A stretch of 64,000 nt of DNA, from NCBI GenBank assembly GCA_018402525.1, contig JAGYIR010000009.1, positions 186,001-250,000 of the forward strand, given 5' to 3'. The first letter of the stretch is position 1; each line of letters begins with the position of its first letter. Of the stretch, positions 13,798 to 47,954 are shown piece by piece. A program made the translations under genes and the position numbers. The DNA is from Crocinitomicaceae bacterium. GTDB lineage: Bacteria > Bacteroidota > Bacteroidia > Flavobacteriales_D > Crocinitomicaceae. The notes beneath the pieces were generated by a model that made no database searches, had not been told where the DNA came from, and saw nothing but the letters and a program-made list of their open reading frames with translations.

Positions 13798-13860
13798 ACT
13801 TAAGTGTTTTTATCAGTATTTTAAAGAACTTTTAATTGTTTTCCCTTCAATTAGGGAGTG

Positions 13861-13891
13861 CAAATTTATGAAAGAATTTCTTTATAACAAG
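13861..13891 (-). promoter_or_regulatory. promoter of the tRNA-tuf-secE-rpo operon
   Basis: On the minus strand CTTG (13891-13888), a 19-nt spacer and TAAATTTG (13868-13861) match the Bacteroidota -33 TTTG / -7 TAnnTTTG consensus. Transcription would begin near 13855, about 60 nt ahead of tRNA-Thr. Confidence 0.75.
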
Positions 13892-14263: not shown

Positions 14264-15139
14264 TTACTTTTTATGTCCCCGTGGGTGGGACTGTGAATAA
14301 ATACTTGTTAATTGCGCAAACGAGTTATGGGTATATATTTGAGTTGCTGATAAATTTGCATGCCCTAATATCTCCTTCAATACTTCTAACCCAGCACCAT
14401 TGTTTAACATATGCGTTGCAAAGGTATGTCTCAGTATGTGAGGACTCTTCTTCCGTAACCCTGTCACCCTTCCAAGGTAATCATTTATTTTTCTATAGAC
14501 AAACTTCGGATATAGTTTTTTACCACTTTTTAACACTAGCAGGCAATCGGTCTGAACGTTGATTTCACTTTTTAAATTTTCGTACCTTTTTATGTGGTTG
14601 AATAGCTCTGTTGATATAGGAATGATTCGCTCTTTATTGCGTTTTCCAAGGACTTTAATTTTATCCAATTGAATGTTGCCGCTTTTAAGTTCCACCAGTT
14701 CATTTGATCGCATTCCAGTTTGATACAGAAGTTCAAATATGAGATGGTCACGCATCCCTTCAAAGTCATCTTCAAATAGTGATTCCATTTTTTCGACTTC
14801 AAGTTCATTCTCCTGAGCAAATGATGGAATTTGTTTTTTTGTTTTTGGACCAACCACTGTTTGCGTTGGGTTCATTTGAATAATTCCCTCCTTGGACAAC
14901 CATTTAAAATAGGTTCTTAATGAGGATAATTTTCTATTGACTGAAGAAGGCGATATATCCTTTTCAAGCAGCTCAACCATCCAACCACGTATCACTTTGC
15001 TGTTAATCTCAGAAATTGAATGCTTGTCGACTGCGCCTATGAACTCAAAAAATTGAGTAAGGTCTTTATTATACGCAAGGGTCGTGTGTTCTGAAAATCG
15101 CTTTTCAGTCTGAGCATACTTCAAAAAATCATCGCGCAT
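14264..15139 (-). CDS. xerC: tyrosine recombinase XerC-like
   Basis: A site-specific recombinase (291 aa) expected to resolve chromosome dimers at dif. It has an N-terminal SAM-like core-binding domain and a C-terminal catalytic domain with the Arg of YQTGMRSNEL, the Lys of KVLGKRNKER, the HILRHTFATHML box, the second His in ILGHANLSATQIY, and the Tyr nucleophile (IYTH). The ATG at 15137-15139 (MRDDFLKY) is preferred, because the upstream ATG at 15154 lies in the loop of the rpsU terminator hairpin. The chosen start codon follows that terminator's T-run directly, so expression requires read-through from rpsU. Confidence 0.93.
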   Translation of the reverse strand: MRDDFLKYAQTEKRFSEHTTLAYNKDLTQFFEFIGAVDKHSISEINSKVIRGWMVELLEKDISPSSVNRKLSSLRTYFKWLSKEGIIQMNPTQTVVGPKTKKQIPSFAQENELEVEKMESLFEDDFEGMRDHLIFELLYQTGMRSNELVELKSGNIQLDKIKVLGKRNKERIIPISTELFNHIKRYENLKSEINVQTDCLLVLKSGKKLYPKFVYRKINDYLGRVTGLRKKSPHILRHTFATHMLNNGAGLEVLKEILGHANLSATQIYTHNSFAQLTSIYSQSHPRGHKK

Positions 15140-43654: not shown

Positions 43655-43978
43655 ATGATAACTGTCACAGATTCAGCAAAAAAGCAAGCACTCAGACTTA
43701 TGGAAGAGGATGAGAAAGATGGGTTGTTCATTCGTGTTGGTGTTGATGGAGGTGGATGCTCAGGTTTGATGTATCAACTGAAATTCGACAACGAACTGAA
43801 AGATGACGACAAAACCTTTGAGGACAATGGTATTCAAATCGTAGTCGACAAAAAGAGCTATCTGTACCTCATTGGTACTACCCTTGATTTTTCGGGTGGG
43901 TTAAATGGAAAAGGATTTGTGTTCGTAAATCCAAATGCAGACAGAACGTGTGGATGTGGAGAATCATTCTCAGTCTAA
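43655..43978 (+). CDS. sufA: A-type iron-sulfur carrier protein (SufA/IscA family)
   Basis: A 107-aa A-type Fe-S scaffold/carrier with the three conserved Cys ligands: C35 in [10 protein letters not shown], and C99 and C101 in [10 protein letters not shown]. It delivers clusters or iron to apo-proteins. It is the first gene of the suf operon, with sufB starting 19 nt downstream. Confidence 0.94.
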
Positions 43979-43997: not shown

Positions 43998-45452
43998 ATG
44001 TCAAATTATACAGAAGATCAATTAGCGAAGGACCTAGAAGGGCAGGAGTATAAATATGGATTTACTTCTAATTTTGATTCCGATAAAGCTCCGAAAGGAT
44101 TAAACGAGGACATCATTCGTTTTATTTCTGCAAAAAAAGAAGAACCCGAATGGCTCTTGAAACATCGCTTGGATGCATTTGAAGTTTGGAAAACGATGAT
44201 TGAACCAGATTGGGCACATGTGAACTACAAAAAGCCCGATTTTCAAGATATTACCTATTATTCAGCGCCAAAGCAATCGAAAAAATACGAAAGTTGGGAC
44301 GATGTTGATCCGGAAATGAAAGAAACCATGAAAAAATTGGGGATTTCACTAGAAGAGCAACAACGCCTAACGGGAACCAACGTAGCAGTAGATTTTGTTA
44401 TGGACTCCGTTTCTGTAGCGACTTCGTTCAAAGCGAAATTGAAAGAATTGGGAATTATTTTCTGTTCATTTTCAGATGCAGTCAAAGAACATCCAGATTT
44501 GGTGCGTGAAAACATGGGAACAGTTGTTCCGACTTCAGATAATTTTTATGCAGCATTGAACTCTGCTGTATTTACCGATGGTTCGTTTTGCTACATCCCA
44601 AAAGGTGTTCGATGTCCCATGGAACTTTCGACGTACTTTAGAATCAATGAAGGTGGAACAGGACAGTTTGAACGCACGCTTGTCGTTGCGGACGAAGGAT
44701 CATACGTTTCCTATTTGGAAGGTTGTACAGCTCCTCAGCGAGATGAAAATCAATTGCATGCCGCTGTGGTCGAATTGATAGCAAAAGACAATGCAGAGAT
44801 TAAATATTCGACGGTACAAAATTGGTATCCAGGAGATAAAAATGGATTGGGCGGTGTGTTCAATTTCGTGACGAAGCGTGGTATGTGCCACACCAATTCA
44901 AAGATTTCATGGACGCAAGTCGAAACAGGTTCAGCTGTGACGTGGAAATATCCTTCGTGTATTTTGAGAGGTGACAACTCTGTGGGTGAATTTTACTCTG
45001 TAGCTGTGACGAATAACTACCAGCAAGCAGATACGGGTACAAAAATGATTCACCTCGGCAAAAACACAAAAAGCACGATTATTTCGAAAGGAATATCTGC
45101 AGGGAAGTCGCACAATTCGTACAGAGGATTGGTACAAATTCATAAAAATGCGCACAACGCTCGAAATTTCTCTCAATGCGATTCGCTGTTGATGACTGAT
45201 CAGTGTGGTGCTCACACCTTTCCGTACATTGAGTGCAAGAACAGTTCAGCGAAAATAGAACACGAAGCAACGACTTCAAAAATTGGTGAAGATCAGTTGT
45301 TTTATTGCAAGCAACGAGGAATCAGTGAAGAAAAAGCGATTGGTTTGATTGTAAATGGATATTGCAAAGAAGTATTGAATCAATTGCCAATGGAGTTTGC
45401 GGTTGAAGCGCAGAAGTTGTTGACGATAAGTTTGGAAGGCTCGGTGGGGTAG
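43998..45452 (+). CDS. sufB: Fe-S cluster assembly protein SufB
   Basis: A 484-aa component of the SufBC2D scaffold on which Fe-S clusters are built. The family region [20 protein letters not shown] and the C-terminal [20 protein letters not shown] block are present. The conserved Cys and Glu residues of the beta-helix core are intact. The ATG at 43998 (MSNYTEDQ) is preferred; the longer frame overlaps sufA. The next gene is an inserted four-helix-bundle cassette and not sufC, which is unusual. Confidence 0.96.
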
Positions 45453-45454
45453 TA

Positions 45455-45501
45455 GAATTAGCTAATTGCTGATTGACGAATTAGCGAATTAAGGAAATTG
45501 G
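45455..45501. repeat. left flank repeat of the S23 cassette
   Basis: An AT-rich stretch between the sufB stop and the S23 gene. It holds GAATTAGC twice (45455-45462 and 45478-45485). The part CTAATTGCTGATTG (45462-45475) is the reverse complement of CAATCAGCTAATTAG on the right flank, apart from one extra base. Confidence 0.7.
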
Positions 45502-45897
45502 ATGGCAACGATTAATAAATATGAAGATCTAGAAGTTTGGAAACTGAGCATGGATTTATGCCTTGAAGTGTACAATGCGACAAATCAAGAACAGTTTTCA
45601 AAAGATTTTGGATTGAAAGATCAAATACGTAGATGTTCGGTTTCAATTCCTTCAAATATTGCTGAAGGATTTGAGCGAGATAGCACCAATCAGTTTTTGT
45701 ACTTTTTGACAATTGCAAAGGGTTCGGCAGGTGAATTAAGAACACAGCTTATTATTGCAAGCAGATTAAATTACATTGACAGTACTCAATTTGAACTGTT
45801 AGTTAACAAGTGCATTGAAACCGAAAAACAATTAGGCGGTTTTAAAAATTACCTTATTAAAATTAAGAATAGTAAAAAACAAGTAGTTTCTAATTAG
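45502..45897 (+). CDS. four-helix-bundle protein (S23/IVP family) inserted in the suf operon
   Basis: A 131-aa protein of the 23S rRNA intervening-sequence-protein family (TIGR02436-like). Signature stretches are YEDLEVWKLSMDLCLEVY, RRCSVSIPSNIAEGFER and FLTIAKGSAGELRTQL. It has no known enzymatic activity and is related to the accessory protein of diversity-generating retroelements. It sits between sufB and sufC in the same direction but has no role in Fe-S assembly. Inverted AT-rich repeats bracket it, and its stop codon (45895-45897) is inside the right repeat. It probably arrived as a mobile cassette and is co-transcribed with suf. Confidence 0.88.
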   Translation: MATINKYEDLEVWKLSMDLCLEVYNATNQEQFSKDFGLKDQIRRCSVSIPSNIAEGFERDSTNQFLYFLTIAKGSAGELRTQLIIASRLNYIDSTQFELLVNKCIETEKQLGGFKNYLIKIKNSKKQVVSN

Positions 45898-45932
45898 CAA
45901 TCAGCTAATTAGAAATCAGTTAATTGAAATAG
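45889..45932. repeat. right flank repeat of the S23 cassette
   Basis: AT-rich repeat at the 3' end of the S23 gene, ahead of sufC. It contains CTAATTAG twice (45890-45897 and 45905-45912) and CAATCAGCTAATTAG (45898-45912), the inverted partner of the left flank, plus ATCAGTTAATTG (45916-45927). Confidence 0.7.
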
Positions 45933-45933
45933 A

Positions 45934-46686
45934 ATGATTGAAATAATAGACTTACACGCTTCCGTTGAAGGAAAGGAAATTTTGAAAGGGTTGACGCTAA
46001 CTGTAAATCCAGGTGAAGTGCATGCGATTATGGGGCCGAATGGTGCTGGTAAAAGCACGTTAGCTTCGGTTCTTGCAGGACGTGAGGAATTTGAAGTGAC
46101 TCAAGGTTCAGTGACGTTTGAAGTAAAAGATTTGCTTGAAATGGAAACGGAGGATCGCGCGCGTGAAGGTGTGTTTTTGGCTTTTCAGTACCCTGTTGAA
46201 ATCCCAGGCGTATCGAATGTGAACTTTTTGAAGACTGCTATTAACGAAATCAGAGAGCACAAAGGCGAAGATCCAATTTCTGCGAAAGATTTTATGGCAA
46301 TGGTGCGTGAGAAATCAGCGTTGGTTGAATTGGACTCAAAACTAGCCTCTCGAAGTGTCAACGAGGGATTTTCAGGCGGTGAAAAAAAGCGAAACGAAAT
46401 ATTTCAAATGGCCATGTTAAATCCCAAACTTTCGATTCTTGATGAAACGGATTCAGGATTGGATATTGATGCTTTGCGCATTGTCGCAAATGGTGTCAAC
46501 AAGTTGAAAACGCCAAACAATGCAACGATCATAATTACACACTATCAGCGTCTATTGGATTACATCGTTCCAGATTTTGTACACGTGCTTTACAATGGGA
46601 AAATTGTGAAAACAGGTCCAAAAGAATTGGCATTGGAACTTGAAGAGAAAGGATACGACTGGATCAAAGAAGAATTAGCACTTTAA
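45934..46686 (+). CDS. sufC: Fe-S cluster assembly ATPase SufC
   Basis: A 250-aa ABC-type ATPase of the SufBCD complex that drives the scaffold's structural change. Walker A is GPNGAGKST, the signature is GFSGGEKKRNEI, and Walker B is LSILDETDSGLD (typical of SufC). The ATG follows the right flank repeat of the S23 cassette by one base. sufD begins 11 nt after its stop. Confidence 0.98.
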   Translation: MIEIIDLHASVEGKEILKGLTLTVNPGEVHAIMGPNGAGKSTLASVLAGREEFEVTQGSVTFEVKDLLEMETEDRAREGVFLAFQYPVEIPGVSNVNFLKTAINEIREHKGEDPISAKDFMAMVREKSALVELDSKLASRSVNEGFSGGEKKRNEIFQMAMLNPKLSILDETDSGLDIDALRIVANGVNKLKTPNNATIIITHYQRLLDYIVPDFVHVLYNGKIVKTGPKELALELEEKGYDWIKEELAL

Positions 46687-46697
46687 CCAAGAGAAGA

Positions 46698-47954
46698 ATG
46701 ACCGTAATTGAAGGAAACAACATCAGTTTTACTGAGAAGTTAAAAGGAACTTCCTTACCCATACAACAGGAGGACCTAGCTACCGCATTGGAGACGCTTG
46801 CAGTTACATCCATGCCGACTACACGTGTAGAAGCATGGAAATATACGCGATTGACAAAGATTGGGAAAGTCAACTTTACCAACGAAGAAGTAGCGGTAAA
46901 CTCGATTGACAATTACAGAATTTGTGCATCAGAAATAACGTTGGTATTCGTCAACGGGCATTATTCGGAAGTTTTATCAAGTCGGCAATTACCAGAAGGT
47001 GTTAATGTTGAACTAATTTCTAAATCGACGCATCAACTTGAAAAGACTTCAGTTAAACTGGAAGGAGAAATATTTAATGCAACAAATACGGCTTTTCTCA
47101 ACGATGGTGTAATCATTCGTATTGCAGCAAATGCGGTGATTGAACAACCGATTCAAATGGTGCATATTTTGAAAGGTGATCATGTCATCTCAAATTTCAA
47201 AACGATCATTCACGCTGAAAAATTCTCCAAAGCGGAAATTGTACAAGGATTTTTTACTGATGAAGGGACTTCAAATTTCTGTAATTCAATCTCGGAAATC
47301 AATGTGGCTGAAAATGCGCATTTGACAATCAATAAAATCCAATACGAGTCGGAAGAATCGTTTCATATCAGTACGGAGGAAGTGCAACAAGCGACAGATT
47401 CCAACTTCAAAATAAACACATTTACCTTGAACGGTGGTTTGGTTCGAAACAACTTACACATTAATGTCAACGGAAAAAACTGTGAAAGTCACTTGAACGG
47501 CGCTTACCTTTTGAAGAACAAGCAACATGTCGACAATCACTCAGTGGTGGATCACAAAGTACCGAATTGCGAATCGCATGAACTGTACAAAGGAGTTATT
47601 GACGAAAACGCAACAGCAGTATTTAACGGTAAGGTGTATGTGCGCCCAGATGCGCAAAAAATCAACGCTTTTCAGTCCAACGCGAACGTGTTACTTTCTG
47701 ACAATGCAACAATTTACTCTAAGCCGGAATTAGAGATCTATGCAGACGATGTAAAATGCTCACATGGTTCGACTACAGGACAATTGGACGAAGAGGCAGT
47801 ATTTTACCTACGAGCTCGAGGATTGTCTGAGAAATCTGCTCGACAGTTGGTCGTTTCTGCATTTATCGGAGAAGTGATCGAAAAAGTGGAAAACGAGGAA
47901 GTCGTGACCTTCATCAATAAAAAATTGAAGGAACGTTTTGACTGGAATATCTAA
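46698..47954 (+). CDS. sufD: Fe-S cluster assembly protein SufD
   Basis: A 418-aa partner of SufB in the SufBC2D scaffold. The C-terminal block SHGSTTGQLDEEAVFYLRARG, shortened here to its core, is the family mark (C-S-H-G-S followed by LRARG). The last gene of the operon. No sufS or sufE follows, since the next gene runs the other way, so the cysteine desulfurase must be encoded elsewhere. Confidence 0.95.
   Translation: MTVIEGNNISFTEKLKGTSLPIQQEDLATALETLAVTSMPTTRVEAWKYTRLTKIGKVNFTNEEVAVNSIDNYRICASEITLVFVNGHYSEVLSSRQLPEGVNVELISKSTHQLEKTSVKLEGEIFNATNTAFLNDGVIIRIAANAVIEQPIQMVHILKGDHVISNFKTIIHAEKFSKAEIVQGFFTDEGTSNFCNSISEINVAENAHLTINKIQYESEESFHISTEEVQQATDSNFKINTFTLNGGLVRNNLHINVNGKNCESHLNGAYLLKNKQHVDNHSVVDHKVPNCESHELYKGVIDENATAVFNGKVYVRPDAQKINAFQSNANVLLSDNATIYSKPELEIYADDVKCSHGSTTGQLDEEAVFYLRARGLSEKSARQLVVSAFIGEVIEKVENEEVVTFINKKLKERFDWNI

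Follow-up and report, generated by a model that had tools for sequence, protein, structure and literature searches.

The S23 or intervening sequence protein (IVP) family is common and structures of its members have been solved, and we know of no function for it. Among the closest described systems, intervening sequences (IVS) of ribosomal RNA that enclose an S23 open reading frame (ORF) between complementary ends are already known, as are heptanucleotide repeats, which cyanobacteria carry as short tandemly repeated repetitive (STRR) sequences and which also occur elsewhere. According to PMC4990558, the ends of rRNA IVS are complementary, RNase III removes the IVS, and the ORF inside was long ago suggested to act in mobility (Ralph and McClelland 1993). 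A further relative is the Avd protein of the diversity-generating retroelements (DGRs), whose target needs a hairpin or cruciform with a stem that may vary in sequence while it remains paired (PMC3240598, accessible text). Here we describe an S23/IVP gene in a stretch of 64,000 nucleotides from a Crocinitomicaceae bacterium (GCA_018402525.1, contig JAGYIR010000009.1, positions 186,001 to 250,000; hereafter the window), where it lies between sufB and sufC and is bracketed by mirrored arrays of short repeats.

The IVP gene of the window (45502..45897, forward strand) encodes a protein of 131 residues that matches PF05635 (E=1.8e-38, 131.5 bits against a curated cut-off of 33.8) and TIGR02436 (3.1e-37, 127.1 bits against a curated cut-off of 24). 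Its AlphaFold2 model (pLDDT 94.1) has the four-helix bundle fold of 2GSC and 2RLD, with template modelling (TM) scores of 0.80/0.89 to 2gsc_B and 0.74/0.89 to 2rld_E. The gene is preceded by a G-rich left array of degenerate 7-8 nt units (GAATTAGC, TAATTGC, TGATTGAC and similar; 45455..45495, forward strand, ends approximate) that begins two bases past the sufB stop codon, and is followed by its mirror image, a C-rich right array with the units CTAATTAG, CAATCAG, CTAATTAG, AAATCAG and TTAATTG (45887..45930, forward strand, ends approximate), which holds the IVP stop codon. The whole cassette measures about 470 bp. GAATTAGC stands twice in the left array (from 45455 and 45478) and CTAATTAG twice in the right (from 45890 and 45905), and the repeats are parts of unit arrays; the longest local inverted repeat listed at the locus joins 45456-45474 to 45892-45910 (19 nt, 89% complementary). 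The initial annotation had reported the four-helix-bundle gene between sufB and sufC, the inverted repeats with further copies on each side and the stop codon within the right one, and in all of these, coordinates included, it was correct. Arms of 19 nt with at least 17 complementary positions and a loop of 300-600 nt occur at two centres in the window, and at 0, 0, 1 and 0 in four dinucleotide shuffles. The other inverted repeat of equal strength and spacing (13850-13868 / 14351-14369) is close to a tRNA cluster. In the flank test described below the window locus scores 16 (z 3.6), a value that cross-paired flanks reach in 9% and control genes in 13.5% of cases. Alone, the window locus is only moderate evidence, and the weight comes from the population of IVP loci.

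Mirrored short-repeat flanks are a general pattern of IVP genes in very different bacteria. IVP genes were collected from this genome and its relatives (28 of 40 genomes matched), from nine more genomes of the genus (seven matched) and from named loci across many phyla (the best-scoring 80 of 586), giving 174 genes of which 154 were usable and 20 were left out for short flanks or a partial domain. The 150 nt before the start codon were compared with the reverse complement of a region running from 30 nt before the end of the stop codon to 150 nt past it, a boundary set that early since many right arms begin within the ORF. A score of at least 18 was reached by 106 of the 154 IVP genes (69%), whereas the rate was 4.4% when left and right flanks were mismatched and 9.4% among 341 other genes from these loci. 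The window cassette carries end repeats of its own, like most of the IVP genes tested. An earlier form of the test, with the right flank starting past the stop codon, gave 30 of 65 genes at this score. Size-matched control ORFs reached it in 16 of 235 cases, and two of their ten matches at a score of at least 20 were themselves IVP genes that had been dropped as duplicates. Outside Bacteroidota, as judged by record titles, 24 of 30 IVP genes have mirrored flanks, as do 15 of 24 in a second IVP subfamily. IVP matches were also found in 31 plasmid records, many of them cyanobacterial; nine of ten cyanobacterial plasmid loci that were fetched score at least 19, and the remaining one is flanked on either side by long direct arrays.

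The arms share an anatomy, with a spelling that differs between loci. They are arrays of degenerate 7-nt units, some of 8 nt, with a unit sequence that is specific to the locus, and in this they are STRR-like. Autocorrelation over the arms of the 106 loci gives an identity excess at lag 7 of 0.19 on the left and 0.205 on the right, with further peaks at lag 14 in both arms. Upstream of the gene the arm is rich in G and poor in C (G exceeds C in 99 loci, the reverse in 5), the downstream arm is C-rich (96 loci vs 5), and in 38 of the 106 loci the right arm begins within the IVP reading frame. The G skew of the left arm is kept whatever the strands of the neighbours (69:5 where both run along the IVP gene, 11:0 where both run against it, 9:0 and 6:0 in diverging and converging settings), so G-richness follows the IVP gene and not transcription of the neighbourhood. 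This fixed order of mirrored 7-nt arrays, with the G-rich side before the gene, offers a handle on what the IVP protein may bind. At the same operon site, a left arm and its own right arm score at least 18 in 30 of 45 cases and cross-species pairs in 46 of 198; own pairs match better, so both arms change together. A candidate origin of the arms from the target's own end sequences was unsupported (p 0.07 and 0.18 against other loci).

Arms of this kind could be selected at the level of RNA, as an mRNA stem from which RNase III cuts the IVP part and thereby separates the cistrons, on the precedent of the RNase III-excised IVS of 23S rRNA. The RNA fold of the window cassette does beat 100 shuffles (z -4.7), and same-direction neighbours are favoured, 118 of 158 IVP genes being flanked by two same-direction genes as against 162 of 256 control triples from the same loci in which all genes run the same way (p 0.017). 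However, among mismatches within the arms, the type that sense RNA would tolerate is no commoner than the other (217 G.U-type vs 226 A.C-type), which argues that selection for sense-RNA pairing is not what keeps the arms mirrored, and both arms and skew persist where the two neighbours run opposite to the IVP gene or where it lies between diverging or converging genes. We consider an RNA element of this type unlikely. A search with Rfam at gathering scores detected no rRNA, either in the window or in another 20 IVP loci having few neighbouring genes. The window cassette resembles a 23S rRNA IVS in its complementary stem-forming ends, its S23 ORF in the loop and its sporadic distribution, and differs from one in its location between protein cistrons rather than inside 16S or 23S rRNA, in arms made of locus-specific 7-nt units and in the lack of an RNA-pairing signature.

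Comparison of relatives shows empty counterparts of occupied sites. In the genus, 34 genomes were searched for the suf operon; 4 yielded no suf locus, and 29 of the 30 loci were readable (L045 is without the sufB end). Their sufB|sufC spacers fall into 14 of 10-51 nt, 2 with an IVP gene (this genome and a relative, G013) and 13 of 64-172 nt without one, the spacer being 10-13 nt in five relatives. At fadB|fadA, 24 of 25 loci were readable (L241 is without the fadB end); eight spacers measure 1-13 nt and four contain IVP cassettes of 477-597 nt as measured, with the downstream start codon taken in by some of these four lengths and by two other fad spacers. Since empty spacers are a few nucleotides long, the cassettes sit between stop and start codons that are nearly adjacent elsewhere. 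The two suf IVPs are 66% identical as proteins and have different arm units. Left arms were also compared across orthologous sites, but this comparison took in upstream coding sequence and was discarded. In the window, profiles run on the suf genes identify the upstream cistron sufB (43998..45452, forward strand; PF01458 and PF19295; the longest ORF opens at 43935 and the start at 43998 was chosen), the downstream cistron sufC (45934..46686, forward strand; PF00005) and, as the remainder of the operon, sufD (46698..47954, forward strand; PF01458 and PF19295).

Recurring IVP sites, named here from protein sequences, are presumably sufB|sufC, the position before sufB, fadB|fadA, fadA|acyl-CoA dehydrogenase and sdhA|sdhB, together with what we take to be cysD|cysN, scoA|scoB, hisH|hisA, thiD|thiE, sucB|lpd and others. 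Insertion into operons, as proposed from the window alone, is accordingly seen in suf, sdh, fad, cysDN and others, operons usually regarded as essential. On annotated plasmids, one IVP gene is found between nrdB and nrdA on the strand opposite to the two, and another in a conjugation cluster; on two cyanobacterial plasmids the IVP gene stands between cas6 and cas4 of CRISPR operons (L300:380-2544, L306:313-2561). As a separate observation, two IVP genes can share a fad operon, one on each side of fadA, and encode different IVP proteins (L067, L144, L152, L184).

A tree of 160 IVPs indicates that lineages tend to stay at their sites, as in the suf and sdh groups. For 54 genes with a site label, a quick tree built on these rows requires 17 site changes, compared with a minimum of 10 and a shuffle mean of 37.6, and more than one entry is found at fadB|fadA, cysD|cysN, hisH|hisA and sucB|lpd. 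In the tree of 160 IVPs, the suf IVP of the window has as its sister the one at sufB|sufC in G013 (support 100/95), so the window copy looks inherited there and not newly inserted. Such tracking of operon sites across families is what would be expected if IVP genes were old, vertically inherited accessory genes of operons that are often lost, with arrays that are neutral by-products of slippage and quasi-palindrome correction rather than the ends of an element. Against this stand the separate IVP lineages at some sites, the relatives in which sites are empty to a few nucleotides, and the IVP genes in unrelated places such as cas6|cas4, the antisense position at nrdB/nrdA and the conjugation cluster; a neutral by-product also leaves unexplained why arms are rare at size-matched ORFs and why G-richness is tied to gene direction. 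A resident operon gene seems to us a rather doubtful explanation.

The kinship of S23 and Avd claimed in the initial annotation was borne out by a PHROG Avd match of the window protein (2.6e-6) and by TM scores of 0.72/0.86 between its model and 4dwl. The solved relatives of the IVP protein are pentamers. No IVP match was found in the phage records searched at E 1e-4, and a PADLOC profile search returned nothing at E 0.01. Kinship with Avd would suggest that the cassette is a satellite of retroelements, moved by reverse transcription with a reverse transcriptase supplied in trans. The sole long ORF of the cassette is the IVP gene; RVT_1 is absent from 9 of 14 IVP genomes, including this one with four IVP genes and G020 with nine, and its matches show no association with IVP genes over 23 genomes (5 of 14 IVP genomes vs 2 of 9 IVP-zero genomes, p 0.66), so a DGR-like route is very improbable. 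The window cassette is like a DGR in having an Avd-type protein, by fold and by remote sequence similarity, and unlike one in that this genome has no RVT_1 match and in that the IVP stems are long, repeat with a period of 7 nt and stand on either side of the IVP gene.

The genome of 3.16 Mb carries four IVP genes, each with a distinct short repeat type on both sides. One copy (L002), at what we take to be hisH|hisA, has CTAATCAC/CTAGTCAC in direct orientation, with an inverted score of 6 and a direct score of 42. Another is flanked by AGTTCAAAG and its mirror image and followed by a gene taken for rpoN, and the fourth, presumably at cysD|cysN, is flanked by GAATTTAGAG and its mirror image. The AATTAGC-type array of the window recurs at three other spots in the genome where no IVP gene was seen, one of them preceding a gene that we take to be rpmI. 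The AATTAGC pattern has 15 matches in the genome, as does a reversed-pattern control, and 9 of them fall in three clusters, whereas those of the control are scattered. Both this recurrence and the absence of the gene from the suf site in most relatives run counter to the outcomes that the initial annotation had named as grounds for giving up its reading, namely a gene at the same place in all relatives with the repeat nowhere else, or a flank repeat confined to one locus. No transposase ORF lies within the cassette, in line with the proposed lack of a transposase of its own; the search for one was limited to the cassette. The terminal inverted repeats common to all copies that mark an insertion sequence (IS) or a miniature inverted-repeat transposable element (MITE) are not seen in IVP arms. 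The cassettes resemble MITEs and IS in that full and gene-less short inverted versions occur at the same kind of site, and differ from them in having no transposase, no end sequence common to the copies and no defined target duplication.

Gene-less versions, here called solo arrays, were recognised by eye at fadB|fadA, for example in G043, G021 and G013, and several of the 13 longer IVP-free sufB|sufC spacers likewise resemble gene-less mirrored arrays by eye; other fadB|fadA spacers have a different palindromic repeat. That repeat, CTTCGACTCCGCTCA with its mirror image, occupies the same intercistronic sites in G008, G023 and G040 (suf spacers L036, L039 and L060; fad spacers L245, L247 and L249). 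Spacers of at least 60 nt at sufB|sufC occur in none of 8 IVP-zero genomes and in 13 of 19 IVP genomes that have no IVP gene there (p 0.002, relatedness ignored); the same comparison at fadB|fadA gives 2 of 8 vs 9 of 12 (p 0.065), and four of the nine hold the different palindromic repeat. Over genus spacers, solo arrays were found in 20 of 340 in IVP genomes vs 3 of 315 (p 0.0005 pooled), with G020 and G021 supplying 17 of the 20. Other sets give p 0.06 (over 21 genomes) and p 0.089 (a second set of genus stretches), and all stretches pooled give 6 of 382 in IVP-zero genomes vs 22 of 421 in IVP genomes (p 0.006). Five of the six matches in IVP-zero genomes look like AT-rich chance and one, in G028, looks real. 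The association of solo arrays with IVP genomes is suggestive only. Likeness of solo arrays to the IVP arms of their own genome is modest: 3 of 20 at p<0.05, with a Fisher combined value of 1.5e-4 and a median p of 0.27.

The same anatomy links the IVP family to the heptanucleotide repeats of cyanobacteria, Beggiatoaceae and Bacteroidetes. In Nostoc, the P6b stems of the trnL intron are built from TDNGATT and NNTGAGT heptamers (PMC4476775, accessible part). Like STRR sequences and these stems, IVP arms consist of degenerate 7-nt units in complementary arms, and cyanobacterial plasmid IVP genes have arrays similar to them by look; unlike IVP cassettes, the Nostoc stems are given no protein partner in the accessible text of PMC4476775. 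TAACTGA heptamers of Beggiatoaceae, cyanobacteria and Bacteroidetes are intergenic, many of them near start codons, and of their horizontal spread it is said that "no mechanism is evident"; they differ from IVP arms in being direct repeats of one fixed heptamer, and the accessible text of that paper makes no mention of S23, intervening or helix bundle (PMC4679880). Two papers name four helix bundle proteins as genes, with no mention of flank repeats in the parts accessible (PMC8700078, PMC5524665), and our literature search, which took in few subscription papers, found no paper tying S23/IVP genes to inverted or heptanucleotide repeats outside rRNA.

Our results suggest that mirrored arms of locus-varying spelling mark a little-known kind of selfish cassette with ends set by shape rather than by sequence. 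We put it at about an even chance that the feature in the window is a hairpin cassette built around an S23/IVP gene and belonging to a selfish class spread over many phyla, a counterpart of the IVS that resides outside rRNA, between the cistrons of operons. Given that the arms are mirrored and oriented but free of a fixed sequence, the cassette ends would be recognised through structure, as a DNA hairpin or cruciform. The DGR target hairpin is a precedent for recognition of structure and not sequence in a system that contains Avd, and on this model the Avd-fold IVP protein may bind hairpin DNA formed by the arms. Host replication or repair enzymes would then cut and join, for insertion as for loss, DNA-level copying between the arms, such as template switching in the hairpin, may keep them mirrored, and loss of the gene would leave solo arrays behind. 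If the cassettes do move, it would be with ends invisible to sequence-based search and a small protein lacking any known catalytic domain. More tentatively, IVP genes at large may be widespread mobile hairpin cassettes with neither transposase nor reverse transcriptase, having ends defined by structure and a 7-nt period, and the source of dispersed heptanucleotide repeats (STRR, trnL P6b stems, Bacteroidetes spacer repeats); we rate this broader proposal as possible and distinctly short of probable, lower than we otherwise would, since the link of solo arrays to IVP genomes depends on G020 and G021.

Several observations weigh against a hairpin cassette that moves. At a score of 18, 48 of the 154 IVP genes have no mirrored arms, and 31 of the 154 have a direct-repeat score of at least 18. 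A flank repeat that travels with the S23 gene, as the initial annotation had envisaged, was rejected, arms being no more alike within a genome than between genomes (means 12.95 vs 12.81, 65 loci). No target duplication was definable from filled and empty sites at the two spacers, sufB|sufC and fadB|fadA, where array ends are degenerate, and no transposition event or junction pair of near-identical strains was found. The quick tree has a single entry each at the suf, panB and leu sites, and the site fidelity of IVP lineages fits long residence equally with homing. Without G020 and G021 the excess of solo arrays disappears (3 of 225 vs 3 of 315, p 0.70), G028, in which no IVP gene was detected, holds a convincing solo array, and remnants resembling arrays are present at fadB|fadA in G007. 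In simulated arrays built on a shared heptamer, register/shift identities were 0.76/0.58 at a lag-7 identity of 0.58 and 0.76/0.54 at one of 0.52; the observed arms have 0.81/0.59 at 0.54, which gives only mild support to mirroring that goes further than a common unit. What stands of the mobile cassette first proposed is thus its patchy occurrence (2 of 29 readable sufB-sufC spacers), the empty spacers in 14 of the 29 loci and the repeated entry of some sites; shared end repeats, a target duplication and movement itself were not found.

Some minor features of IVP loci accompany this pattern. At L197:1-900 a PEP-CTERM gene lies between two gene-less hairpin arrays with near-identical arms and different loops, and an IVP cassette about 2 kb away has similar units. 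At L122 and L168 the right array seems to extend into the gene downstream and to supply the coding sequence for its N-terminus. An AT-rich motif like TTCTTAACTTAAAT, not seen at the window locus, recurs by eye in the genus between left arm and IVP start (for example in L010, L012, L026, L071, L082 and L103), where it is perhaps the IVP gene's own promoter.
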